Virus record (IMG/VR): IMGVR_UViG_3300037488_001979
Span: 1-29,012 of that record
Source: a virus
DNA length: 29,012 nt
Direction: 5' to 3' (one strand)
Of this stretch, positions 3,375-12,921 are shown in pieces (the first letter of the stretch is position 1; each line of letters begins with the position of its first letter). The notes below the pieces were generated by a model, which made no database searches, was not told the DNA's origin, and was given only the letters and a program-made list of their open reading frames with translations. The translations under genes were made by a program, and so were the position numbers.

Positions 3375-4490
3375 ATGGGACTCCTGAGAGAAGCGACCGA
3401 CGATGCCGCGCTGGCAAAAGTCGGCATCATGGGATTGCAGGGCAGCGGGAAGACCTTCACTTCCACGCTCATTGCGATCGGGCTGCACAAGCACATCGGA
3501 TCGAAGAAACCAGTAGCGTTCCTTTCAACCGAGCCGGGCGTTGACTACGTCAAGCACAAGTTCACCGCGGCTGGAGTCAAGCTGCTGGTGGCCAAGACCA
3601 AGAGCTTCGTCGATGCACTGACGTTCATGGACGAAGCCGAGCGAGCTTCCGACATCTTCATCATCGACAGCGCCACGCATTTGTGGGTGGAACTGTGCGC
3701 GTCGCATCTTCGCAAGATCAACTCCAACCGAAGGCAGCCGATCACCAAGTTGGAGTTTCAGCATTGGGCCGAAGTCAAGTCGGTATGGTCGCGGTTCACC
3801 GATCGGTTTCTCGATGTGAAGTGCCACGCCATCGTCTGCGGGCGCCTCGGGTACGTCTACGAATTCCAGAAGGAAGACGAAGACAGCAAGAAGGAGCTCG
3901 TCAAGGTCGCTACGAAGATGAAGGCCGAGGGCGAGTTCGGTTACGAGCCGTCGCTCCTCATCGAAATGGACAAGATCCAGACCGGGCCGAACCTCGGTCC
4001 TTCCAAGAAGGCCGGCACGGCCGAGCGTCTCGTGCGCGTGCGGGCGTTCGTCCACAAGGACCGATTCGACACCATTGATGGGATGATGTTTGAGGACCCC
4101 ACGTTTGAAAACTTCCTCCCTCACTTTTCTATGCTCCACATCGGCGGCGCGCACGTCGTAGAGGATCCCGGAAAGTCATCCGAGGGACTATTCAGCGCCG
4201 AAGGCAATGGGGAGTGGACCCGAGAGAAGCGAGCGCGCGAACGGTGGTGTGAGGAGATAGCAGGGCTTTTCACCATGTACAAGCCGGGGCAGACAGCCTC
4301 GGAGAAGGCCGAGAAGGCCAAGCTCTTGCAGGAAGTCTTCGGGACTACGGCATGGACAGCGATTCAGAACACGAGAAGCGACGCCATCCGTGCCGGATAC
4401 TACGCGCTGAAGGCCAAGGTTGCGCCAGACGGACCCGATCCGGTTGAGGCGGTTGAGGCCGGCGAGACCACAACAGAAGGAGCCGAGTGA
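3375..4490 (+). CDS. Sak4-like RecA-fold ATPase (AAA_24)
   Basis: The product is 371 aa, with ATG behind GAAAGGGG. It has Walker A at residues 20-27 (GLQGSGKT) and Walker B at about 94-98 (IFIID). The N-terminal ~230 residues follow the phage AAA_24/Sak4 pattern: P-loop, STEPG after strand 2, IIDSATHLW. The C-terminal ~140 residues (KAEGEFGYEPSLLIEMDKIQ onward) are a lineage-specific extension with lysine-rich helices. Sak4 proteins are RecA-like phage recombinases that promote single-strand annealing and depend on an SSB. The next gene, overlapping by one base, encodes an SSB-like protein, a strong contextual match. A role in phage DNA recombination or replication repair in the cytoplasm is likely. 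Confidence 0.75.
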   Translation: MGLLREATDDAALAKVGIMGLQGSGKTFTSTLIAIGLHKHIGSKKPVAFLSTEPGVDYVKHKFTAAGVKLLVAKTKSFVDALTFMDEAERASDIFIIDSATHLWVELCASHLRKINSNRRQPITKLEFQHWAEVKSVWSRFTDRFLDVKCHAIVCGRLGYVYEFQKEDEDSKKELVKVATKMKAEGEFGYEPSLLIEMDKIQTGPNLGPSKKAGTAERLVRVRAFVHKDRFDTIDGMMFEDPTFENFLPHFSMLHIGGAHVVEDPGKSSEGLFSAEGNGEWTREKRARERWCEEIAGLFTMYKPGQTASEKAEKAKLLQEVFGTTAWTAIQNTRSDAIRAGYYALKAKVAPDGPDPVEAVEAGETTTEGAE

Positions 4491-4900
4491 TGTACGATGA
4501 TGGAGACCTGAACTATAACCCGAGCGACGCGGACCCGTGCTTCCCCGCTATCGACGTTCGGGCGTCGCTCCAGTCGTTCAAGATCATAGACCGTGAGGGC
4601 GGGAAAATGTACGTCCTCACGTTCAGCGCGACCGACGGACGGGTTACGCGCGAGGTAAGCGAGTGCATCATCATGCCGAAGTTTCTTTGGAAGATCAAAC
4701 GCTACGCCTACGCGATCGGAGCGGGCGAGGCGTTTGAAGCGGGGACGTTCAAGCTTCGCGACCAGTTCGGGAAGCCCGTGACCCTGTCGCTAATCGTTGA
4801 CGAGGGCAAGGGAACGCCACGGAACTTCATCGCGGAATACAAGCCGGCCGTGCCGGCAGAGCAGCCGATGGTAGACCCAGGCGGCGATCTGCCGTTCTAG
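4490..4900 (+). CDS. SSB-like single-strand DNA-binding protein, Sak4 partner
   Basis: The product is 136 aa. ATG 4490 overlaps the preceding stop as TGATG, with AAGGAG upstream; the GTG one codon earlier is less likely. The protein is beta-rich in its centre (ASLQSFKIIDREGGKMYVLT, FLWKIKRYAYA) and ends in an acidic stretch closing with GGDLPF. That resembles the SSB C-terminal tip (DDDIPF) that recruits partner proteins. The family is close to DUF669-type phage proteins that accompany Sak4 or Erf recombinases. It probably coats ssDNA and loads the upstream ATPase. The fold is inferred from pattern, not from a structural match. Confidence 0.65.
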   Translation: MYDDGDLNYNPSDADPCFPAIDVRASLQSFKIIDREGGKMYVLTFSATDGRVTREVSECIIMPKFLWKIKRYAYAIGAGEAFEAGTFKLRDQFGKPVTLSLIVDEGKGTPRNFIAEYKPAVPAEQPMVDPGGDLPF

Positions 4901-4910
4901 ACCACGTGTG

Positions 4911-4967
4911 CCTGGGGCTCGCATAACCGGGAAACGCCCGGAGGGTATGGCATTTGCGAGCCCCGGG
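4911..4967 (+). promoter_or_regulatory. Nested stem-loop element A in an intergenic region
   Basis: GGGGCTCGCA (4914-4923) pairs with TGCGAGCCCC (4955-4964), and the stem extends outward to about 13 bp with one wobble (CCT / GGG). Inside the loop CCGGG (4927-4931) pairs with CCCGG (4937-4941) around AAACG. The whole element fills most of the 92-bp gap between the SSB-like gene and the next ribosome binding site. It could terminate or attenuate, or be a structured 5'UTR or protein-binding RNA. Confidence 0.45.
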
Positions 4968-4992
4968 CTTCTACAAACAGGAGGGACACGAG

Positions 4993-5451
4993 ATGGAGTT
5001 TACGTGGGTTACTAAGAGGTCCAGGGCAGGCCACGTCAGGGCTGCGAATGAGGCCGGGACGATGTCTGTCTACACGACCAAGAAGGGCGGCGGGAAGGAT
5101 GTTCGTCTGAGCATTAGCATACGACGAGACATCGTCACGACCGCCGGGATGTCCAGCCATGACTTCGTTCAGTTCGGCTACAACAGCGACCGCCTAGCAA
5201 TCAAGATCAGCACTGACGGCAAGGGTGCGAGGCTGTCCCCGAAGGTGTCGGGAAAGCACAACGGAAGCAGGCTCCGCTGTACGTTCTGTGTGACCAGTGA
5301 GTTCCCGGAGTGTTTCAGGGCTAGGGCGTTGGCCGTTCCGATTCTGGACGTTCAGACAGGACCAGGAATCATCATGTTCTCAGCGAGGTCGGCCGATGCG
5401 TGGGCGAACAGTGGTCGGCAACTTGAACTCATTCAGGGGGTGTCCAAATGA
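4993..5451 (+). CDS. Conserved-looking hypothetical protein, beta-rich
   Basis: The product is 152 aa. I chose ATG 4993 for the AGGAGGG site 9 bases upstream; an in-frame ATG at 4954 lies inside the stem-loop element. The middle (VRLSISIRRDIVTTAGMSSH, FVQFGYNSDRLAIKISTDGK) reads as a string of short beta strands with an AbrB-like cadence (basic strand, small hydrophobic turn, D-x-V-x-F), but the match is too weak to assign. It has two Cys and no membrane segment. It sits in the DNA-metabolism operon and overlaps the next start (ATGA). The function is unknown; a DNA-binding or nucleoprotein role is a guess. Confidence 0.65.
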   Translation: MEFTWVTKRSRAGHVRAANEAGTMSVYTTKKGGGKDVRLSISIRRDIVTTAGMSSHDFVQFGYNSDRLAIKISTDGKGARLSPKVSGKHNGSRLRCTFCVTSEFPECFRARALAVPILDVQTGPGIIMFSARSADAWANSGRQLELIQGVSK

Positions 5452-5762
5452 CCGAAGGAACGCGGAAGCGGATGACGCTTCTGGAGCAGGCAACAGTCAC
5501 GCAGTGGATGACCGACAACGCCGAGTGCATCCCTGCGTACAACGCGGATGATCTCGCGTTCGCTGTGGCTCAGGCGACTGACATCAAGCTCACCCCGAGC
5601 GCGGCCGTGCGCCACCGCAAGGGCTGCGGCCTGGCCCCGGAGAAGCCGCCGAAGAAGGAGCGGCGCCCGCGGGTTGGTGTGGACTCGCGGCTCGTGGCGA
5701 TCGAGGAGCGGCTCGGGGCGATCGAAGAATTGCTGCTCGCCAAGAAGCAGTTGCGGAAGTGA
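5448..5762 (+). CDS. Small basic protein with C-terminal coiled coil
   Basis: The product is 104 aa; ATG overlaps the previous stop (ATGA). The N-terminal ~55 residues (LLEQATVTQWMTDNAECIPA, DDLAFAVAQATDI, then SAAVRHRKGCG) look like a small helical, possibly winged-helix-type DNA-binding unit. A basic linker follows (KPPKKERRPRVG), then a leucine-heptad coiled coil (SRLVAIEERLGAIEELLLAK). Basic linker plus dimerisation helix suggests a dimeric nucleic-acid-binding protein, by inference only. No named family was recognised. Confidence 0.65.
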   Translation: MTEGTRKRMTLLEQATVTQWMTDNAECIPAYNADDLAFAVAQATDIKLTPSAAVRHRKGCGLAPEKPPKKERRPRVGVDSRLVAIEERLGAIEELLLAKKQLRK

Positions 5763-5765
5763 GAG

Positions 5766-5838
5766 ATGCCGGGTCCAGCGTTCGCGAAACTCGCGGCCGC
5801 TGACTCATTCATCCAAGCGGAATCCTGCGCTGGACCCG
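5766..5838 (+). promoter_or_regulatory. Nested stem-loop element B in an intergenic region
   Basis: GCCGGGTCCAGCG (5766-5778) pairs perfectly over 13 bp with CGCTGGACCCGGC (5826-5838). Inside lie CGCG-AAACT-CGCG (5781-5793) and a weaker CCGC/GCGG pair, giving a possible three-way junction. It starts three bases after one stop codon and ends about 25 bases before the next ATG, in the same position and with the same nested design (an AAAC loop) as element A at 4911-4967. Confidence 0.5.
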
Positions 5839-5863
5839 GCTGTGTAAATCGAGAGGAGGGGGC

Positions 5864-6256
5864 ATGTGCGAGTGTCTGCGACATAGCGACGGGACGATCA
5901 CTCTCTGCGAAGTCTGCACGGATGCGTGGGACGAGGCGCAGTCTGATATGCAGCGGATACACGATGAGGTCGAACGCCAGAGAGACCGGGCCGGGATGCA
6001 CTACGAAGCCAACTGCCGACTTGGCGCGGAGAACGCCCGCCTGGCCGCGCGCAACCGTCTGCTGGAGGCGGTGCGGAAGGTCGCCATCTGGTGGCAGGAG
6101 GCCATGCGTCGCGGCGAGCCCACGGCTTCGCACTACGTCGCTCTTGACATGGCCCTCGCCGCCTGCGCCGCCCCGGTGTGCGAGACGTGTGTTAGTCCCG
6201 ACCTAGCGGGCATAGACGGAGCCGGGTGCCGCACCGCGCCGAAGGAGGAGCCGTGA
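5864..6256 (+). CDS. Cys-rich coiled-coil hypothetical protein
   Basis: The product is 130 aa, with ATG behind GAGGAGGGGGC. The N-terminus MCECLRHSDGTITLCEVC contains four cysteines (C-x-C and C-x2-C) likely to bind zinc. A long helical, coiled-coil-like region follows (about residues 22-85, with AENARLAARNRLLEAVRKVA). The C-terminus has three more cysteines (VCETCVSP, GAGC). Such zinc-knuckle plus coiled-coil proteins are frequent, poorly understood cargo of early phage operons. The stop overlaps the next start as GTGA. Function is not assignable. Confidence 0.65.
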   Translation: MCECLRHSDGTITLCEVCTDAWDEAQSDMQRIHDEVERQRDRAGMHYEANCRLGAENARLAARNRLLEAVRKVAIWWQEAMRRGEPTASHYVALDMALAACAAPVCETCVSPDLAGIDGAGCRTAPKEEP

Positions 6257-7026
6257 GTAACCGAGACGCATTGGACCGGATAGCGAACGCGGAAGAGACG
6301 ATGGTCACGCTGTACTCGGAGTGGTGCCGTCGGCAGTTCGATATTATGGACAAAGCCGTCTGCGCGCCGAGTAGGCCCCCGATGCGCGATGACTGGCCGT
6401 GGTTCTATTTCGTAGACAATTCGGACGGAGAGGCGGTTCCTTGCCGCGTGTGCAAGATCTGCGGTGCGATGCACGACTACGACTGCAAACGGCAGCTCGA
6501 ATCGTTCTGGTCCAACACGGGGACGCAATCCTGCCCCGCCTGCGCACCGAGCAAGGGGGAGGAGTTCGACTCCAACAAGCGCACCAGCATCTACGCCCGT
6601 GAGCAAGTGGACGCGATGATGGCCTACAAGCGCGTTCAGCTTTCCGAGGCCACTGCCGCGAACACCGACCTTCGCCGCCAGCTTGCGGAGGCGAAGGACG
6701 CCCGAATCGTCGCCCAGCGGGAGGCGGCGGATCTGCTGACGCGTCTGGCCGGAAACCAGGCGCGCACAGACAATGCCGTGCGTGAGGCGGCGGACAAGCA
6801 CGAGCGGATGCGCGTGCTCCAGGCCGAGCTCGCCGAGGCCAAGGTCGCCCGCATCACCCCGGTCTGGACCGACGGGCCGCCGGATCGGGTGGGGCCGTGG
6901 CTGCGAGAGCACGACGGTGGCTGCTATGCAATCAACGTCGTTGAGCGAGACCTGACACCGCCGCGCATCTGGGACCCGTCCCGCTGGCTCTACCTCGGCG
7001 ACTACGTCGAGGGAGCCAAGCCATGA
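6253..7026 (+). CDS. Zinc-finger and coiled-coil hypothetical protein
   Basis: The product is 257 aa. It starts at GTG 6253, overlapping the preceding stop, with AAGGAGGAGCC upstream. Residues ~65-97 carry two CxxC pairs (CRVCKICG and SCPAC) with a His and Cys between them (MHDYDC), a likely zinc ribbon or treble clef. A long helical stretch (about 110-200, QLAEAKDARIVAQREAADLL and similar heptads) should form a coiled coil. The last ~55 residues are Trp/Tyr/Pro-rich (WTDGPPDRVGPWLREHDGGC, WDPSRWLYLGDYV) and read like a small globular C-terminal domain. This resembles its neighbour at 5864-6256 in design. A nucleic-acid-interacting scaffold is possible, but this is unproven. Confidence 0.7.
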   Translation: MSNRDALDRIANAEETMVTLYSEWCRRQFDIMDKAVCAPSRPPMRDDWPWFYFVDNSDGEAVPCRVCKICGAMHDYDCKRQLESFWSNTGTQSCPACAPSKGEEFDSNKRTSIYAREQVDAMMAYKRVQLSEATAANTDLRRQLAEAKDARIVAQREAADLLTRLAGNQARTDNAVREAADKHERMRVLQAELAEAKVARITPVWTDGPPDRVGPWLREHDGGCYAINVVERDLTPPRIWDPSRWLYLGDYVEGAKP

Positions 7027-7262
7027 ACACGGTCGCAACCGGACTGCTCCTGTGCGGTCTGATAAACCTGTGTGCAATGGCGGCAAACTTGATCTGGGCC
7101 ACGCACAACTGGAAGTGCATGGCTAGGAATGTCGTCGACGCAAAAACAAACGAACGGCACGCCAACGAGAACGTCGAGCAATCGCGGGCGAATGCGGAGT
7201 TGGCCAAACCACGAAAGCCGACACGGGCTGCCAAGTACGTCCGGGAAGGAGGCAAGTCATGA
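7023..7262 (+). CDS. Single-pass small membrane protein
   Basis: The product is 79 aa; ATG overlaps the previous stop (ATGA). Residues 5-27 (ATGLLLCGLINLCAMAANLI) form one transmembrane helix. The C-terminal ~50 residues are charged, polar and helical (NERHANENVEQSRANAELAK) with a basic end, so a short N-out or signal-anchored topology with a cytoplasmic tail is likely. It is embedded in the early operon and coupled to the next gene. Roles such as inner-membrane host takeover or replication anchoring are possible; no family is recognised. Confidence 0.65.
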   Translation: MNTVATGLLLCGLINLCAMAANLIWATHNWKCMARNVVDAKTNERHANENVEQSRANAELAKPRKPTRAAKYVREGGKS

Positions 7263-7444
7263 TCGAAGCCATCCTCCGCTTGCTGGCCGACTACCGAGCC
7301 GGCAGCCGCAAGGCCAAGCGCAGAGAACTCCGCGCGATCTCATCGGAGCTGGCTTGGCTCGAAGCCGAATACGAACGTCTGGCGCAACGCCGCGACGAGC
7401 TGGTCAACGAGCTGCGGCCGGCGCTGCGGGTGGTGTCGAGGTGA
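7259..7444 (+). CDS. Small helical protein of 61 aa
   Basis: ATG overlaps the previous stop (ATGA), with GGAGGCAAGTC upstream. The product is a basic N-terminal helix (MIEAILRLLADYRAGSRKAK) followed by a heptad-like coiled coil (LAWLEAEYERLAQRRDELVN). It probably dimerises. It could partner with the membrane protein just upstream or the zinc-finger protein just downstream, since all three are translationally coupled. Function is unknown. Confidence 0.6.
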   Translation: MIEAILRLLADYRAGSRKAKRRELRAISSELAWLEAEYERLAQRRDELVNELRPALRVVSR

Positions 7445-7641
7445 CCCTCTGCCCATGCGGACAGCCGCTCCGCGAGAACTACCGAGGCCGCAAGCGCCGG
7501 CCGAAGTACTGCTCGCGCAGGTGCCAGGCCGAGGGCATGAAGAAGCTCTCCGGGTGGTACCGAAGTCATCGGCCGTTCGTGCGGTCGATCGTCTGCGGGT
7601 CGAAGCGGGATATTGGTGGGCTGGTAGTAATAGCGGATTAG
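7441..7641 (+). CDS. Small zinc-finger protein of 66 aa
   Basis: It starts at GTG 7441, overlapping the previous stop as GTGA. The N-terminal half holds CPCGQPL and, after a basic loop (RGRKRRPKYC), CSRRCQ. This is a C-x-C ... C-x3-C arrangement typical of FCS/MYM- or HNH-associated treble-clef zinc fingers seen in phage proteins. The C-terminal half (HRPFVRSIVCGSKRDIGGLV) carries no clear motif. The very basic character suggests nucleic-acid binding. It ends the run of five coupled genes from 5864. Confidence 0.6.
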   Translation: MTLCPCGQPLRENYRGRKRRPKYCSRRCQAEGMKKLSGWYRSHRPFVRSIVCGSKRDIGGLVVIAD

Positions 7642-7665
7642 CCACGTAAACAAAGGGGAATCGGT

Positions 7666-7734
7666 GTGCAGTTATACAGACGTGGGGAGCCGGTGACATT
7701 ACCCGCATGGGTCAGACGCGGGAGATGCGCATGA
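7666..7734 (+). CDS. Possible 22-aa leader peptide coupled to the VRR-NUC gene
   Basis: A GTG at 7666 follows AAAGGGGA at a workable distance. It opens a 22-codon frame (MQLYRRGEPVTLPAWVRRGR and two more residues) whose TGA at 7732-7734 overlaps the ATG of the nuclease at 7731 (ATGA). The 4-nt overlap is the rule in this operon, which favours a translated leader that couples to the nuclease. The short length leaves real doubt. Confidence 0.4.
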   Translation: MQLYRRGEPVTLPAWVRRGRCA

Positions 7735-8144
7735 CCCGCCCCGACTCCCGCGCCCTCCGCGCCACGCACCTTCTCTATGGCGCGACAGACGACCAGGTTG
7801 ACAGGCTGCACCCGGTGCGGGCGGCGAGACCGAGGCGGACGGGGCCGACGCCGGAGGGGGTCGTGCTGCACGAGTGTCTCGCCTACCTGAAGCACCGCAC
7901 GCGGTGGTGCCATCGCCTGAACTCCGGCGTGGTGCAGGAGCCGCGCTATCATCGGTACGGATTCCTGGGGCAGCCGGACATCATGGGACAGCTACACGAT
8001 GGGCGGATTCTGTTTGTGGAGTGCAAGTCGGCAACGGGACGGATGACCCCAGACCAGCAACGGTTTTTCGAGTCTGTGCAAAGTGACCATGTTGTGGCGA
8101 TCCTCGCGCGGTCGGTCGCGGACCTTGCGGTGCTTGACTCGTGA
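7731..8144 (+). CDS. VRR-NUC domain nuclease
   Basis: The product is 137 aa. I prefer ATG 7731, which has GGGAG 6 bases upstream and the 22-aa frame ending on it. In-frame ATGs at 7707 and 7725 are alternatives. The sequence matches the VRR-NUC fold (a PD-(D/E)XK nuclease also seen in Fan1 and phage resolvase-like proteins): E48 in VVLHECLAYL, then GQPDIMG with D83, LFVECKSATG with E97-x-K99, and TPDQQRF with Gln109. All catalytic positions are present. Such phage nucleases process branched DNA or act in replication and recombination, in keeping with the Sak4/SSB and helicase genes nearby. Confidence 0.8.
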   Translation: MTRPDSRALRATHLLYGATDDQVDRLHPVRAARPRRTGPTPEGVVLHECLAYLKHRTRWCHRLNSGVVQEPRYHRYGFLGQPDIMGQLHDGRILFVECKSATGRMTPDQQRFFESVQSDHVVAILARSVADLAVLDS

Positions 8145-8199
8145 CCGATCCGGTGATATGGTCGCATCCCTCTGGCGGCATCTCCCCGATGTTGTCGGA

Positions 8200-8229
8200 C
8201 GGAAAGGCCGGGCGGGGTCTCACCGCCTC
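8200..8229 (+). terminator. GC-rich hairpin upstream of the CoiA-like gene
   Basis: GCCGGGCG near 8209 pairs with CGCCCGGC near 8229-8236. Adding G-T wobbles gives about 12 bp around the loop CTCACC (approximate coordinates). It lies in the 121-bp gap after the nuclease and may end or attenuate transcription there. No T-tract follows. Confidence 0.35.
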
Positions 8230-8242
8230 GCCCGGCTGTATG

Positions 8243-8260
8243 CTCCTTGGTGAGAAGGAG
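8243..8260 (+). promoter_or_regulatory. Hairpin that sequesters a Shine-Dalgarno site
   Basis: CTCCTT (8243-8248) is exactly complementary to AAGGAG (8255-8260), the ribosome binding site for ATG 8266, with loop GGTGAG. A 6-bp hairpin would hide the site until melted, for example by a translating ribosome, a protein or temperature. This gene is one of the few in the operon not coupled by a stop/start overlap. Confidence 0.5.
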
Positions 8261-8265
8261 AACTT

Positions 8266-8925
8266 ATGTTGTGGGCGATCAGAAATGGTGAGCGTGTGAA
8301 AGCCGCTCCGGGGCTCAAGTCATCGTGCCCTAGTTGTCAATCAGAACTCGTGGCGAAGTGCGGCGACATCGTCGTCTGGCACTGGTCACACCGGGCAGAC
8401 GAGTGCGACCCGTGGTACGAACCGGAATCAGACTGGCACCTGCAAAAGAAACTGGCGTTTCCTCCCGAGTGGCAGGAAGTCGTTGTCGGCAATCACCGCG
8501 CTGACGTGAAGACTCCGACAATAGTAATTGAGCTTCAGGCGTCGTCCCTCGCGCCGGAAGAGATCACAGAGCGGGAGTCATTCTACGGGCGGATGGTGTG
8601 GGTTCTTCGTGGAAGCGACTTCTGGGACAGCCTGAACTTCCGGCAACGGGATGGCTTCGTTTCGTTCAGGTGGAAGTGGCCCAGGAAGTCTTGGTGGTTC
8701 GCGACGAAGCCCGTTTACATTTGCCCCAACGGATCGACATGGGATGGCCGCGCCCAAGAGAACGATTGGGACCAGAGTATGATCCGCGACCTTGGCCGAT
8801 CAATGTTCCTCATCAAGAAACTCCACCACGAGACACCATGCGGCGGCTGGGGTCAGTGGGTCACGGAACTGGATTTCTTCCGCAGTGTGGGCTTCACGAC
8901 ATCACCCCTTGAGCCTACACTATGA
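8266..8925 (+). CDS. CoiA-like nuclease (competence protein CoiA family)
   Basis: The product is 219 aa, with AAGGAG upstream. It has the CoiA-family layout: a short N-terminal beta unit, a CCHH-type zinc finger (C21-x2-C24 ... H39-W-S-H42), then a PD-(D/E)XK-like core with ESDWHLQKKL, NHRADV (D80) and VIELQASSL (E89-x-Q91). E-x-Q in place of E-x-K is usual in CoiA. The C-terminal ~90 residues are Trp-rich (VSFRWKWPRKSWWF). CoiA proteins are best known from natural transformation, where CoiA acts in recombination. In phages, homologues sit among replication genes and probably process DNA. The start is behind a Shine-Dalgarno hairpin, and the stop overlaps the helicase start (ATGA). Confidence 0.75.
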   Translation: MLWAIRNGERVKAAPGLKSSCPSCQSELVAKCGDIVVWHWSHRADECDPWYEPESDWHLQKKLAFPPEWQEVVVGNHRADVKTPTIVIELQASSLAPEEITERESFYGRMVWVLRGSDFWDSLNFRQRDGFVSFRWKWPRKSWWFATKPVYICPNGSTWDGRAQENDWDQSMIRDLGRSMFLIKKLHHETPCGGWGQWVTELDFFRSVGFTTSPLEPTL

Positions 8926-10433
8926 ACTCCGCCGACGCCCAGAAACGCATCCTCTCCGCGTGTCTCCGGTCGCCGTCGCTGTTCATCCCTATCGTCCATG
9001 CGCAACTCAACGGCGGCGCGTGCCTTGATGCCACGACCCGCAAGGTGCTCGCTGCGATCCGCCCAGACGACCACGACCAGGCGTCCTTCGATGTATCGCT
9101 CCGGCTGGAGGCGGACCCGGCCTGGCCCGACATGGTCCCGAACTGGACCACGCCGGCCCGGTGGCTTCCCGACCTGGAGCTGGCCGGCTACCAGGAGAAC
9201 GAGGGGACTATCCGGTCCCTCATCGACCAGCTCAAGCGGGATCACCGCCGCACCGAGGCCCGGGCCCGGCTGCTCCGTGCGTCCCAGCAGCTCGACGAGA
9301 TGCCCGACAACCTCCGGGGCATCCTCGGGGAAGTCGAGACCGCGGCGCACAAGGCGATCGCCGAAGACAATCCAGGACTCGGCGAGCGGTTCCTGGCCGG
9401 CGCCCGCACCCTTGAGCAGATGCGAGCCAATCCGGCGCCGATCCCCGAGTCGCTGCTGGGTGACGGTCTGCTCCGACCCGGGCAGCTCTGCCTGATCCAT
9501 GGAGCGGACGGCTCCCGGAAGTCATGGGCGGCTCTTCACCTGGCCGTGGCGATGGCCACGGGGACGGACTGGTTCGGCATCCCAAGCCGCCCCGGTGGCG
9601 TTAGGGTGGGGCTGGTGAGCCTTGAAGACGATGAGCCGGTGCTGTTGTCCCGGCTGAACCGGATCGTGGCCCTTACAGGAGCGGACGAGATCCTGGTCGA
9701 CACCCGGCTCGTTATCGTGACGGCGCCACACTTCATCGACCCTCTCAACATAGCGGACCCGGCCGGCGAGGCCGCCTTGGCGTCGCTGGTGGAGGAGTTC
9801 CGGCTCGAGGTGCTAATTATTGACCACCTCACCCGGCTCCACATACTCCCCGACGAGCGCGACCTTCGCCCCGTGAGCGAGCCGCTGGTACACCTGGCCC
9901 GGTCCGCCGGCATCGCCATTCCCCTGCTCCACCATGACCGGAAGGCCCAGGGGGGCGGCCGGCCCGGTGGAGCCGACCAAGGAGCGGCCCGCGGAGACTC
10001 CCGGCTTACGGCGGACGCCCGTCTCATTGTAGGGATGAAGGAGGTCGGCAAGCGGATCCGGCTGGCCATCGAGAAATGCACCACCAGCCGGAAGCCAGCG
10101 CCGATCTGGCTTGAGCATGACGAGGGAGGGGCGCTGGTCCTGACCGACGCACCCGCCAACGCCCAGGAGACGGCCGCGGCCAACCGGACAGCCATGCTCA
10201 CCATGATCCAAGACTCCGGGTCGGTCGGCGCCCGGCTCAAGGACATTGGGGAGAAGCTCGGGCTGTCCACAAAGTCCGTGCAAAGGTACGCCGGGAAGCT
10301 CATCAAGGACGGGGAAATCACCCGGGAAGGGAAAACCGACTTGACACGGTACTTCTCAGCGGCGACGAAACTCGCGACACATAATGGTCTGTCCGGGACA
10401 TGTCGCGAGTTGGCGCAAGATGATATGTTCTAA
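8922..10433 (+). CDS. RepA/DnaB-like replicative helicase (AAA_25 type)
   Basis: The product is 503 aa; ATG overlaps the CoiA-like stop. An N-terminal helical domain (AQKRILSACLRSPSLFIPIV) resembles the DnaB N-domain. The RecA-type ATPase follows, with P-loop at 194-201 (GADGSRKS), the strand with the activating Glu (VSLEDDE, ~232-238), Walker B (VLIIDH, D301) and a His-containing sensor region (PLLHHDRKAQ). The AAA_25/RepA relatives are hexameric 5'-3' helicases. Residues ~425-475 form a winged helix (LKDIGEKLGLSTKSVQRYAG). The P-loop has Arg where Gly normally precedes Lys. The gene's 3' end and downstream region carry the repeats proposed as origin, which supports a replication-initiation and unwinding role. 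Confidence 0.75.
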   Translation: MNSADAQKRILSACLRSPSLFIPIVHAQLNGGACLDATTRKVLAAIRPDDHDQASFDVSLRLEADPAWPDMVPNWTTPARWLPDLELAGYQENEGTIRSLIDQLKRDHRRTEARARLLRASQQLDEMPDNLRGILGEVETAAHKAIAEDNPGLGERFLAGARTLEQMRANPAPIPESLLGDGLLRPGQLCLIHGADGSRKSWAALHLAVAMATGTDWFGIPSRPGGVRVGLVSLEDDEPVLLSRLNRIVALTGADEILVDTRLVIVTAPHFIDPLNIADPAGEAALASLVEEFRLEVLIIDHLTRLHILPDERDLRPVSEPLVHLARSAGIAIPLLHHDRKAQGGGRPGGADQGAARGDSRLTADARLIVGMKEVGKRIRLAIEKCTTSRKPAPIWLEHDEGGALVLTDAPANAQETAAANRTAMLTMIQDSGSVGARLKDIGEKLGLSTKSVQRYAGKLIKDGEITREGKTDLTRYFSAATKLATHNGLSGTCRELAQDDMF

Positions 10434-10546
10434 GATGTTAGGAATCGAGATCCAAAATGGACTTGCGACACACCCATCCATAGGGTCAGAACTTGCGACA
10501 CACCAAGTATTCCCCCGTAGGGGGAACTTGGGACATGTCGCGAGTT
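10368..10546. other. Candidate replication origin (iteron-like repeats, AT-rich stretch, hairpin)
   Basis: Five copies of the 11-mer AACTCGCGACA (C/T at position 5, first base variable) occur: forward at 10369-10379, 10460-10470 and 10490-10500, and reverse at 10401-10411 and 10536-10546. Copies 1/2 and 4/5 form inverted pairs; copies 3 and 4 are exactly 30 bp apart. Between copies 2 and 3 a ~45-bp stretch is about two-thirds A+T. Between copies 4 and 5 lies a hairpin. Position at the end of the helicase gene fits a phage or plasmid iteron origin; a multi-site operator is the alternative. Confidence 0.5.
10504..10530. repeat. Hairpin inside the candidate origin
   Basis: TTCCCCC (10510-10516) and GGGGGAA (10520-10526) flank a GTA loop. 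The stem continues as CAAG (10504-10507) with CTTG (10527-10530) across a TA bulge. It is centred between two inverted copies of the 11-mer. It could be a single-strand initiation structure or a terminator for the early operon. Confidence 0.5.
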
Positions 10547-11020: not shown

Positions 11021-11626
11021 ATGCCGAAGCCTGCCGCGCTACCCAGGGACGCTACCTGGCGATCCCGGATTGTCGAATCCGCGGACGTTGACCCCGCGAC
11101 CCTAGTCGCCAACCCCCACAACTGGCGCACGCACCCACCAAACCAACGCGCCGCGATCAACGGCGTCTTAAGCGACGTGGGCTGGGTCGCGCGCATCCTC
11201 GTCAACCGCACGACCGGCCGGATGATCGATGGGCATCTCCGCGTTGAGGAGGCGATCCGGGTCAAGGCCGCGACCGTGCCCGTGGACTTCGTCGAGCTGG
11301 ACGAACGCGAGGAAGCGATCGTGCTCGCGACGCTGGACCCGATCGGGGCGATGGCGCAGACGGAGCGGACGAAGCTGGACGAGGTGATTCGCGCGGCGCA
11401 GACGACGGACGCGGACGTGCAGAGGTGCATTGCGGAGTTGGCGGAGCGGGAGAAGCTCTACCTAGGCGCGGGGGCGAACGAACCCGAGGACCGCGCGCCA
11501 GCACCAGCCATCAAGGCAGCGCTCGCAATTCCCCCGCGGGTATGGCTGACCATGCGCGATGACCTGGTACGGGCGATCGAGGAAGCCGCAGCCGGTTTCG
11601 GCGTGAGTGTCAAATGGGCCTCGTGA
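11021..11626 (+). CDS. ParB-like nuclease-domain protein
   Basis: The product is 201 aa. The N-terminal ~110 residues match the phage ParB/Srx-like domain: VDPATLVANPHNWRTHPPNQ, GVLSDVGWVARILVN and GRMIDGHLRVEEAI. These contain the conserved N-P-x-N-W-R-x-H-P, the G-W turn and the D-G-H-x-R motif that binds nucleotide in ParB-family folds. The C-terminal ~60 residues are helical and may be a dimerisation or linker region. In phages this domain is often upstream of terminase or fused to methyltransferases, and its role is unresolved (DNA nicking, CTP-dependent clamp, packaging). There is no fused methyltransferase here; instead the next gene, overlapping by 13 bases, encodes a radical SAM enzyme. 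Confidence 0.75.
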   Translation: MPKPAALPRDATWRSRIVESADVDPATLVANPHNWRTHPPNQRAAINGVLSDVGWVARILVNRTTGRMIDGHLRVEEAIRVKAATVPVDFVELDEREEAIVLATLDPIGAMAQTERTKLDEVIRAAQTTDADVQRCIAELAEREKLYLGAGANEPEDRAPAPAIKAALAIPPRVWLTMRDDLVRAIEEAAAGFGVSVKWAS

Positions 11627-12921
11627 TCGGCAAGCTCGGCTTCGGGAAGGATGAGTTCTTCTACGGGCTCGACCTGTGCCTGCACAAGGCCGGACGCACC
11701 GCCTATGTCATCGACGAACGCACGGCTCAGGCCTGTGATGTGATCTTGATCACGCTCTTCTGGTGGCGGGATATCTACCTGCTTGAGTCGTTTCTGCGCA
11801 AGGCGGGCATTCGCAAGGGCGGCGGTGGGCCGGTCCTAATTGCCGGCGGCATGCAAGCAACGATGTGCCCGGCTGTGATCGGCAAGATGGTTGATGTGGT
11901 CTTCATCGGCGACGCGGATGATGAGCTGGGGAGCATGCTGGACCAGGCTGAACGCGGCGAGCAACCCGAGTCCGCGCACCTATACCGAGACGGAGATGCC
12001 GTGGTACCGGCGCCGAAAGAGTGTGCTCCTTCGGCCTTCGCCCTGCACAAGGGCGGCAAGCGCGATGTGGTGCGCATCGAGATTGCCCGTGGGTGCAAGT
12101 TCGCCTGCGGGTTCTGTGCACTCACAGGCCTGAAGAGCTATCGCGAGGTTGCCTTCGCAGACATTGAACCGCTCCTTGCGATCTCCAGCCCGGCGCCCGT
12201 GTCGCTCTTCGCCCCTGAGCGAACGAAGCACTCAGAGTGGCCGGAGATCTCTGGCTACCTTGAATCGCACAACCGACGCGACCTTGGCCAGGACGTACGG
12301 CTTGAGCAACTCCAGGAAATCAAGACCAGCTCGGTCACGTTCGGTCTTGAGGGCATCTCCCTGCGTCTGCGCAAGTCGATCGGCAAGGGCTGGAAGGAAG
12401 AGTTCGTTCTCGATCGCCTGCGCAACTTTGTCGAGACGCGCAACGGTGTGGCGATGGTGTCGGTCTACTTCATCGCGGACCTACCCGGCGAAGATGAAGG
12501 CGACTGGGCCGAACTTCGGCAGCTCTTCGAGAAGATCGAAGCAGCCGAGTGGAGCCGCAGGCTTACGCTCAAGCCGGTGCTGAATCCGTTCAGCCCGAAG
12601 CCGTTCACGCCACTTGCCAACGCGGAGATTCACCCGTTCAGACCGTACGGAGAACGCTGGCGCACCATTCTGCGCAAGGGCGGATCCGGGCAGTGGGGTT
12701 TTCGCTGCGTTGAAACGATGGTCTGGGGGCCATTCGAGAGGATTCTTGACGTCATCGCGACCCGTGGCGGGGCGGATGCCTACGAGGTTGTTCGTCGGCT
12801 GCCGCCGAGGCTGCTCAGCGGAAAGCCTCCCGTTGCCGACAACGAGCGTACTGCGCGGCAGATCTTGGACCTCGCGGCTTCATTCGGCCTGACTGAGGAG
12901 CTTCTCGGGGTGGCGGCATGA
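11614..12921 (+). CDS. Radical SAM enzyme with N-terminal Rossmann-like domain
   Basis: From ATG 11614 the product is 435 aa. GTG 11623, overlapping the ParB-like stop as GTGA, is a credible alternative start. Residues ~1-110 resemble the B12-binding-type Rossmann domain of B12-radical SAM enzymes (VLIAGGMQATMCPAVIGKMV, VFIGDADDEL), but I see no D-x-H-x-x-G cobalamin motif. The radical SAM core holds the [4Fe-4S] motif C161-x3-C165-x2-C168 (IARGCKFACGFCALTGLKSY). Downstream family landmarks are FGLEGISLRLRKSIGKG (~243-259) and YFIADLPGEDEGDW (~285-298). It should cleave SAM to a 5'-deoxyadenosyl radical. The substrate is unknown. It sits between ParB-like and TerS genes with overlaps at both ends. 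Confidence 0.85.
   Translation: MGLVIGKLGFGKDEFFYGLDLCLHKAGRTAYVIDERTAQACDVILITLFWWRDIYLLESFLRKAGIRKGGGGPVLIAGGMQATMCPAVIGKMVDVVFIGDADDELGSMLDQAERGEQPESAHLYRDGDAVVPAPKECAPSAFALHKGGKRDVVRIEIARGCKFACGFCALTGLKSYREVAFADIEPLLAISSPAPVSLFAPERTKHSEWPEISGYLESHNRRDLGQDVRLEQLQEIKTSSVTFGLEGISLRLRKSIGKGWKEEFVLDRLRNFVETRNGVAMVSVYFIADLPGEDEGDWAELRQLFEKIEAAEWSRRLTLKPVLNPFSPKPFTPLANAEIHPFRPYGERWRTILRKGGSGQWGFRCVETMVWGPFERILDVIATRGGADAYEVVRRLPPRLLSGKPPVADNERTARQILDLAASFGLTEELLGVAA

Follow-up and report, generated by a model that had tools for sequence, protein, structure and literature searches.

A cluster of 11-bp half-sites at the 3′ end of a phage helicase gene is a candidate replication origin that the helicase's own winged helix may read

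At the 3′ end of a gene for a RepA/DnaB-like helicase (P0001), a viral contig carries six copies of an 11-bp half-site, AACTYGSGACA, arranged as three direct half-sites and two dyads beside an AT-rich stretch (Table 1). The contig (IMG/VR record IMGVR_UViG_3300037488_001979) is a 29-kb incomplete orphan without end repeats; we analyzed it over its full length of 29,012 nucleotides, and refer to this whole stretch as the window. The repeat cluster is real and non-random. We tentatively read it as an iteron-like origin of replication recognized by the winged helix-turn-helix (wHTH) domain of the helicase itself, an explanation that falls short of probable and is nonetheless the best of those weighed below.

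Table 1. Features in and around the half-site cluster (positions in the window)
Feature	Position	Strand	Remarks
RepA/DnaB-like helicase P0001, 503 aa	8922..10433	+	AAA_25/RecA-fold core, residues 175–341; wHTH, residues 414–480 (nt 10161–10361); tail, residues 484–503
Extra C-terminal tail codons, residues 484–503, overlapping half-sites 1 and 2	10371..10430	+	Missing from relatives; pLDDT <50
Half-site 1, AACTCGCGACA	10369..10379	+	Word scan
Dyad A, degenerate left half (7/11) and exact half-site 2 on the minus strand (10401–10411)	10390..10411		17 bp same as 10530–10546
AT-rich stretch, candidate unwinding element	10417..10476		60% AT; tied most AT-rich 60-mer of the record
Half-site 3, GACTTGCGACA	10460..10470	+	14-mer ACTTGCGACACACC also in half-site 4
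Half-site 4, AACTTGCGACA	10490..10500	+	30 bp from half-site 3
Hairpin CCAAGTATTCCCCCGTAGGGGGAACTTGG, overlapping half-site 5	10503..10531	+	Possible terminator or single-strand initiation structure; folding energies
Dyad B, 22-bp near-perfect palindrome AACTTGGGACATGTCGCGAGTT, half-sites 5 and 6	10525..10546		
Small predicted DNA-binding protein P0002, 100 aa	10585..10887	+	Rival reader of the sites; weak PHROG 836 match

A scan of the whole 29,012-base record for AACTYGSGACA placed the six copies at 10369–10546. The initial annotation had described five near-identical copies in direct and inverted orientation, all of which are present, including the pair of half-sites that it set 30 bp apart (10460 and 10490). 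The exact word AACTCGCGACA occurs once on the plus strand and twice on the minus strand (10401–10411 and 10536–10546), and half-sites 3 and 4 are the variants GACTTGCGACA and AACTTGCGACA. The sixth copy, which had been overlooked (AACTTGGGACA, 10525–10535, plus strand), pairs with the copy at 10536–10546 to form the palindrome of dyad B. Copy 2 is likewise the right half of a dyad, an imperfect one, and the 17 identical bp that this dyad has in common with 10530–10546 read GGGACATGTCGCGAGTT. The half-sites are separated by irregular distances (30, 35, and 91 bp) and mixed in orientation, with a unit of 11 bp; they do not form regular direct repeats of about 17–22 bp.

When up to one mismatch to the reference ACTTGCGACA is allowed, six copies fall within 176 bp, the six 11-bp half-sites together spanning about 178 bp. 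Among 300 second-order Markov sequences of the same length, scored for any 10-mer with one mismatch and hence independently of the word we had chosen, the densest cluster held five copies (2/300) and none held six (0/300). Elsewhere in the 29,012 bases, ACTYGCGACA has five scattered matches at one mismatch or fewer, AACTYGCGACA does not occur, and there is no second cluster; the expectation that the 11-mer would be enriched solely here was borne out for this 29-kb record, the scope to which its uniqueness applies. With two mismatches allowed, the record contains 15 matches against 11 expected, which is chance level, and it is therefore the clustering that carries the significance. Judged by their sequence, these are clustered, repeated candidate protein-binding sites that are unique in the 29-kb record.

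The AT-rich stretch previously noted between the copies lies between copies 2 and 3, and it ties with a stretch near 2043 as the most AT-rich 60-mer in a record that is GC-rich throughout (58–70% GC per kb). Its place adjacent to the sites makes it a candidate unwinding element. The hairpin noted between the copies was also recovered, with a folding energy of −10.8 kcal/mol as DNA (z = −3.0) and −18.6 kcal/mol as RNA (z = −2.0); it lacks a T tract and was not called as a terminator. A GC-skew inflection, proposed earlier as a check on the origin, was not found at the cluster when the record was scanned.

The gene in which the cluster begins encodes a predicted helicase, as initially annotated. 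The core of P0001 matches Pfam AAA_25 (2.2e-22), the protein matches PHROG helicase and primase-helicase families, and Foldseek returned RSF1010 RepA as the best solved-structure (PDB) match to the core (4e-11). It has a RecA-fold ATPase core with Walker A and helicase motifs, including the invariant residues K200, D301, and H337-H338, and is putatively hexameric. In an AlphaFold2 model built from an alignment of eleven sequences, the core and the winged helix are predicted at a pLDDT of about 80, and the tail below 50. The codons of the wHTH stop at 10361 and the first half-site begins at 10369, with 7 bp between them, such that the sites start where the folded protein ends. Half-sites 1 and 2 fall within the open reading frame, in the 20-residue tail that is predicted to be disordered; distant helicase relatives end just past the wing, without this tail. 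Given that the tail is missing from relatives and predicted to be disordered, it looks like a reading frame that runs into a cis region rather than constrained protein, and it appears to be dispensable. The earlier observation that two copies lie inside the coding region thus stands, whereas the dual constraint on the gene end that was drawn from it is weak.

The relatives compared do not show conservation of the cluster. We found no close relatives of P0001 in viral contigs, in genome contigs (both by single-sequence scans), or in plasmids. About 950 bacterial genomes yielded two matches, of which one reached 1e-10 or better and the other was weaker; the locus L231 offered nothing of use, and the portal protein, used as bait, gave no matches. 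The helicase relatives at hand are only about 20–27% identical, and many of those on viral contigs have a terminal wHTH. The RepA-like helicases of Gordonia and Microbacterium phages share a homologous core with P0001 (23–30% identity over 33–42% of the protein), but they differ in their N-terminal half, lack the tail, and have no comparable repeat cluster behind the gene. Neither the half-site motif nor a comparable repeat cluster occurs at the helicase 3′ ends of 36 loci and 13 further loci. The helicase with the recognition helix most like that of P0001 by BLOSUM62, including its QR (L012), is likewise without half-sites. An origin position conserved behind the helicase gene is therefore not what these relatives display, and lack of conservation in related phages, which the initial annotation had named as counting against an origin, is in part what we observed; at about 20–27% identity, turnover of sites is to be expected. 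In viral contigs, the exact 17-mer and the inverted-pair pattern had zero matches, and the direct-pair pattern led to one site inside a long structural-looking gene (L007) and one behind a wHTH-ended frame (L008). Several relatives (L037, L041, L044, L046, and L297) have an AT-elevated non-coding gap of about 90–150 bp behind the helicase stop. Words including ATGCGCGA and AGCGATTA are common to the gaps of some of them, and repeats exceed those of shuffles in two of eight gaps; these gaps are possibly origins of their own.

The half-site word recurs behind a different class of genes. Two copies of AACTYGCGACA within 12 bp were found in 102 stretches of 84,980 bacterial and archaeal species genomes, against an estimated 6 or so by chance. 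Many of these stretches start 0–30 bp past the stop codon of a frame with a terminal winged helix: of the 76 adjoining frames, 37 have one of two wHTH signatures at their C-terminal end, 32 of which also contain a Fic motif. To avoid selection on the motif, we also fetched Fic relatives by protein similarity, from 198 genomes. Most of the genes so obtained that have such a wHTH carry short tandem repeats right after the stop. The repeats often exceed those of shuffles and are missing from control segments, and Fic proteins with other ends are mostly without them. Both among loci fetched by protein (L233–L249) and among loci found by motif (L048–L127), there are Fic genes whose tandem repeats begin 0–20 nt past their own stop. 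Among the papers listed by literature searches, none was relevant to the half-site word, and the library searched yielded none on repeats behind Fic genes. On sequence grounds, the arrangement behind Fic genes seems to be a general cis layout, and it may be a more general result than the phage cluster. One further locus (L049, 3578–3735 and 4099–4160), on a contig filed under a cyanobacterium and looking like a contaminant, has nine half-sites, mostly at 20–22 bp spacing, before a gene whose start, on our reading of its sequence, resembles that of a plasmid Rep protein; the word recurs there downstream of an AlbA/RecG-like protein with the C-terminal sequence RRTLQRDL.

Comparison of Fic genes suggests a readable correspondence between recognition helix and repeat word, within a small sample from one phylum. 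Helices RRTLQRDL or RRSLQRDL accompany the repeat TTGCGACA or CTGTGACA; RRTATRDL accompanies AGGACAT, DEGALKEI accompanies GTTGGCGATTA, and RQAALKEV accompanies GGTTGTCGTTTT. The recognition helix of P0001, STKSVQRYAGKL, has the QR of the RRTLQRDL class. Taken together with the link between word and helix in Fic proteins, this points indirectly to the wHTH of P0001 as the most likely reader of the AACTYGSGACA half-sites, favored over P0002. The phage cluster and the Fic repeats have the core ACTYGCGACA in common, and both sit at the 3′ end of the gene for a wHTH protein. They differ in that the Fic sites are tandem at 11–13 bp and as a rule outside the gene, whereas the phage sites are spaced and partly inverted; moreover, Fic is an AMP-transferase-type family rather than a replication protein, and the wHTH of P0001 scores 19.8 bits against helicase wHTHs versus 5.9 against those of Fic proteins.

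We propose that the helicase, in several copies, would use its wHTH domains to bind both the direct half-sites and the dyads, and that the ring would gather or assemble beside the AT-rich stretch, which would open. The helicase would then enter, with no separate loader, and host primase would follow; binding at the dyads might, in addition, control initiation or the transcription that runs into the late genes. The origin proposed in the initial annotation draws support from a single, non-random, AT-rich-centered cluster at the 3′ end of a helicase gene, and is opposed by the relatives that lack the cluster, the unchanged GC skew, the greater closeness of the P0001 wHTH to helicases than to Fic proteins, and a location at an early/late boundary, where an operator would be expected.

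This location gives rise to a possibility that we rate nearly as likely as the origin: that the cluster is an operator or promoter timing the changeover from early transcription (replication) to late transcription (packaging and head), bound by P0002, an unseen repressor, or the helicase acting as a regulator, with the hairpin ending the early transcript. Upstream lie recombination, resolvase-like, and CoiA-like genes, the replication genes occupying 3375–10433; downstream, P0002 begins 38 bp from the cluster and is followed by ParB-like, radical-SAM, terminase, portal, protease, and capsid genes, which places the cluster between replication and virion genes. Palindromic dyads are typical of operators, the hairpin folds better than expected, and P0002 has a weak match to the PHROG 836 family "late transcriptional activator" (5.3e-4). 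However, the structure model of P0002 is of low confidence, its helix-turn-helix is weakly supported, and no relatives of it were found in phages. Neither a sigma-70-type promoter nor a plus-strand intrinsic terminator was called at the site, a search whose scope is hosts with promoters of that type, and an AT-rich 60-mer with six half-sites over 178 bp, two of them within the upstream gene, exceeds what a simple operator needs. Operator and origin can also hold together. Two genes of this neighborhood merit mention in their own right. The radical-SAM protein between the replication and packaging genes (11614–12921) has weak matches to B12-binding radical-SAM families and is unusual phage cargo. 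An AAA_24/Sak4-like recombination gene (3375–4490) is 40% identical to a gene of Cronobacter phage phiES15 and occurs in at least 120 viral stretches; among the 80 loci kept, none has any of 32 other window frames tested (E 1e-4), and the gene thus appears to travel alone.

Two further explanations are improbable. A packaging site (cos or pac) read by a small terminase would make dyad B the cleavage region and the half-sites the binding elements, after the manner of lambda cosB and cosN; in lambda, the binding elements of cosB are repeated and adjoin a nicking site with partial symmetry. The small predicted DNA-binding protein directly after the cluster and the terminase and portal genes 2.8–4.3 kb downstream agree with such a site. 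Yet the gene adjoining it encodes a helicase, ParB-like, radical-SAM, and other genes separate it from the terminase, the record continues past the cluster, and P0002 had no small-terminase match in family and profile searches; we rate packaging as less likely than origin or operator. It is just as doubtful that the repeats are left over from a mobile element, or arose by chance and do nothing for the phage. Their absence from helicase relatives and from other viral contigs is what such a history would leave, but the clustering exceeds that of the simulated sequences and the sites fall together with both the most AT-rich stretch and the point where the folded protein stops. Transposon ends were considered since the dyads resemble terminal repeats; no element was found, and blastn of the region gave just short, weak matches.

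An origin recognized by the helicase would, if right, be a variant of known origin types, and we regard the specific mechanism as plausible. As in the iteron replicons R6K, F, P1, pSC101, and IncQ RSF1010, repeated half-sites lie by an AT-rich stretch near a replication gene. Those replicons, however, usually have regular direct repeats and a separate initiator with two winged-helix domains, whereas the copies here are irregular and partly inverted and the adjoining protein is the helicase itself. RSF1010 encodes both the hexameric helicase RepA, whose structure best matches the P0001 core, and a separate protein, RepC, that binds the iterons; unlike RepA, P0001 has a C-terminal wHTH of its own and a longer N-terminal part. 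Origins behind rep are known from ColE2 and R1/IncFII. The use of one word in direct half-sites and dyads also recalls iteron plasmids, whose Rep proteins bind iterons as monomers and also bind DNA as dimers (PMC4980987). Lambda has its cis sites at the initiator's own gene, with ori inside O, and for mycobacteriophages whose initiators are RepA-like, the origin is thought to be in or beside repA (PMC7157519). Lambda O, ColE2 Rep, and R1 RepA are initiators unrelated to P0001 and have no helicase domain.

A bolder extension, which we think unlikely on balance, is that P0001 belongs to a type of self-targeting replicative helicase whose terminal winged helix reads sites at and just past its own gene end, one protein acting as origin-binder, helicase, and loader. 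In replication, it would be the counterpart of a wider rule by which wHTH-ended proteins have sites directly behind their own stop and the repeat tracks the recognition helix. If the origin reading is true, this otherwise anonymous phage lineage gains a concrete candidate origin, and the phage could do without a dedicated initiator or loader, its helicase gene and origin forming one portable module.
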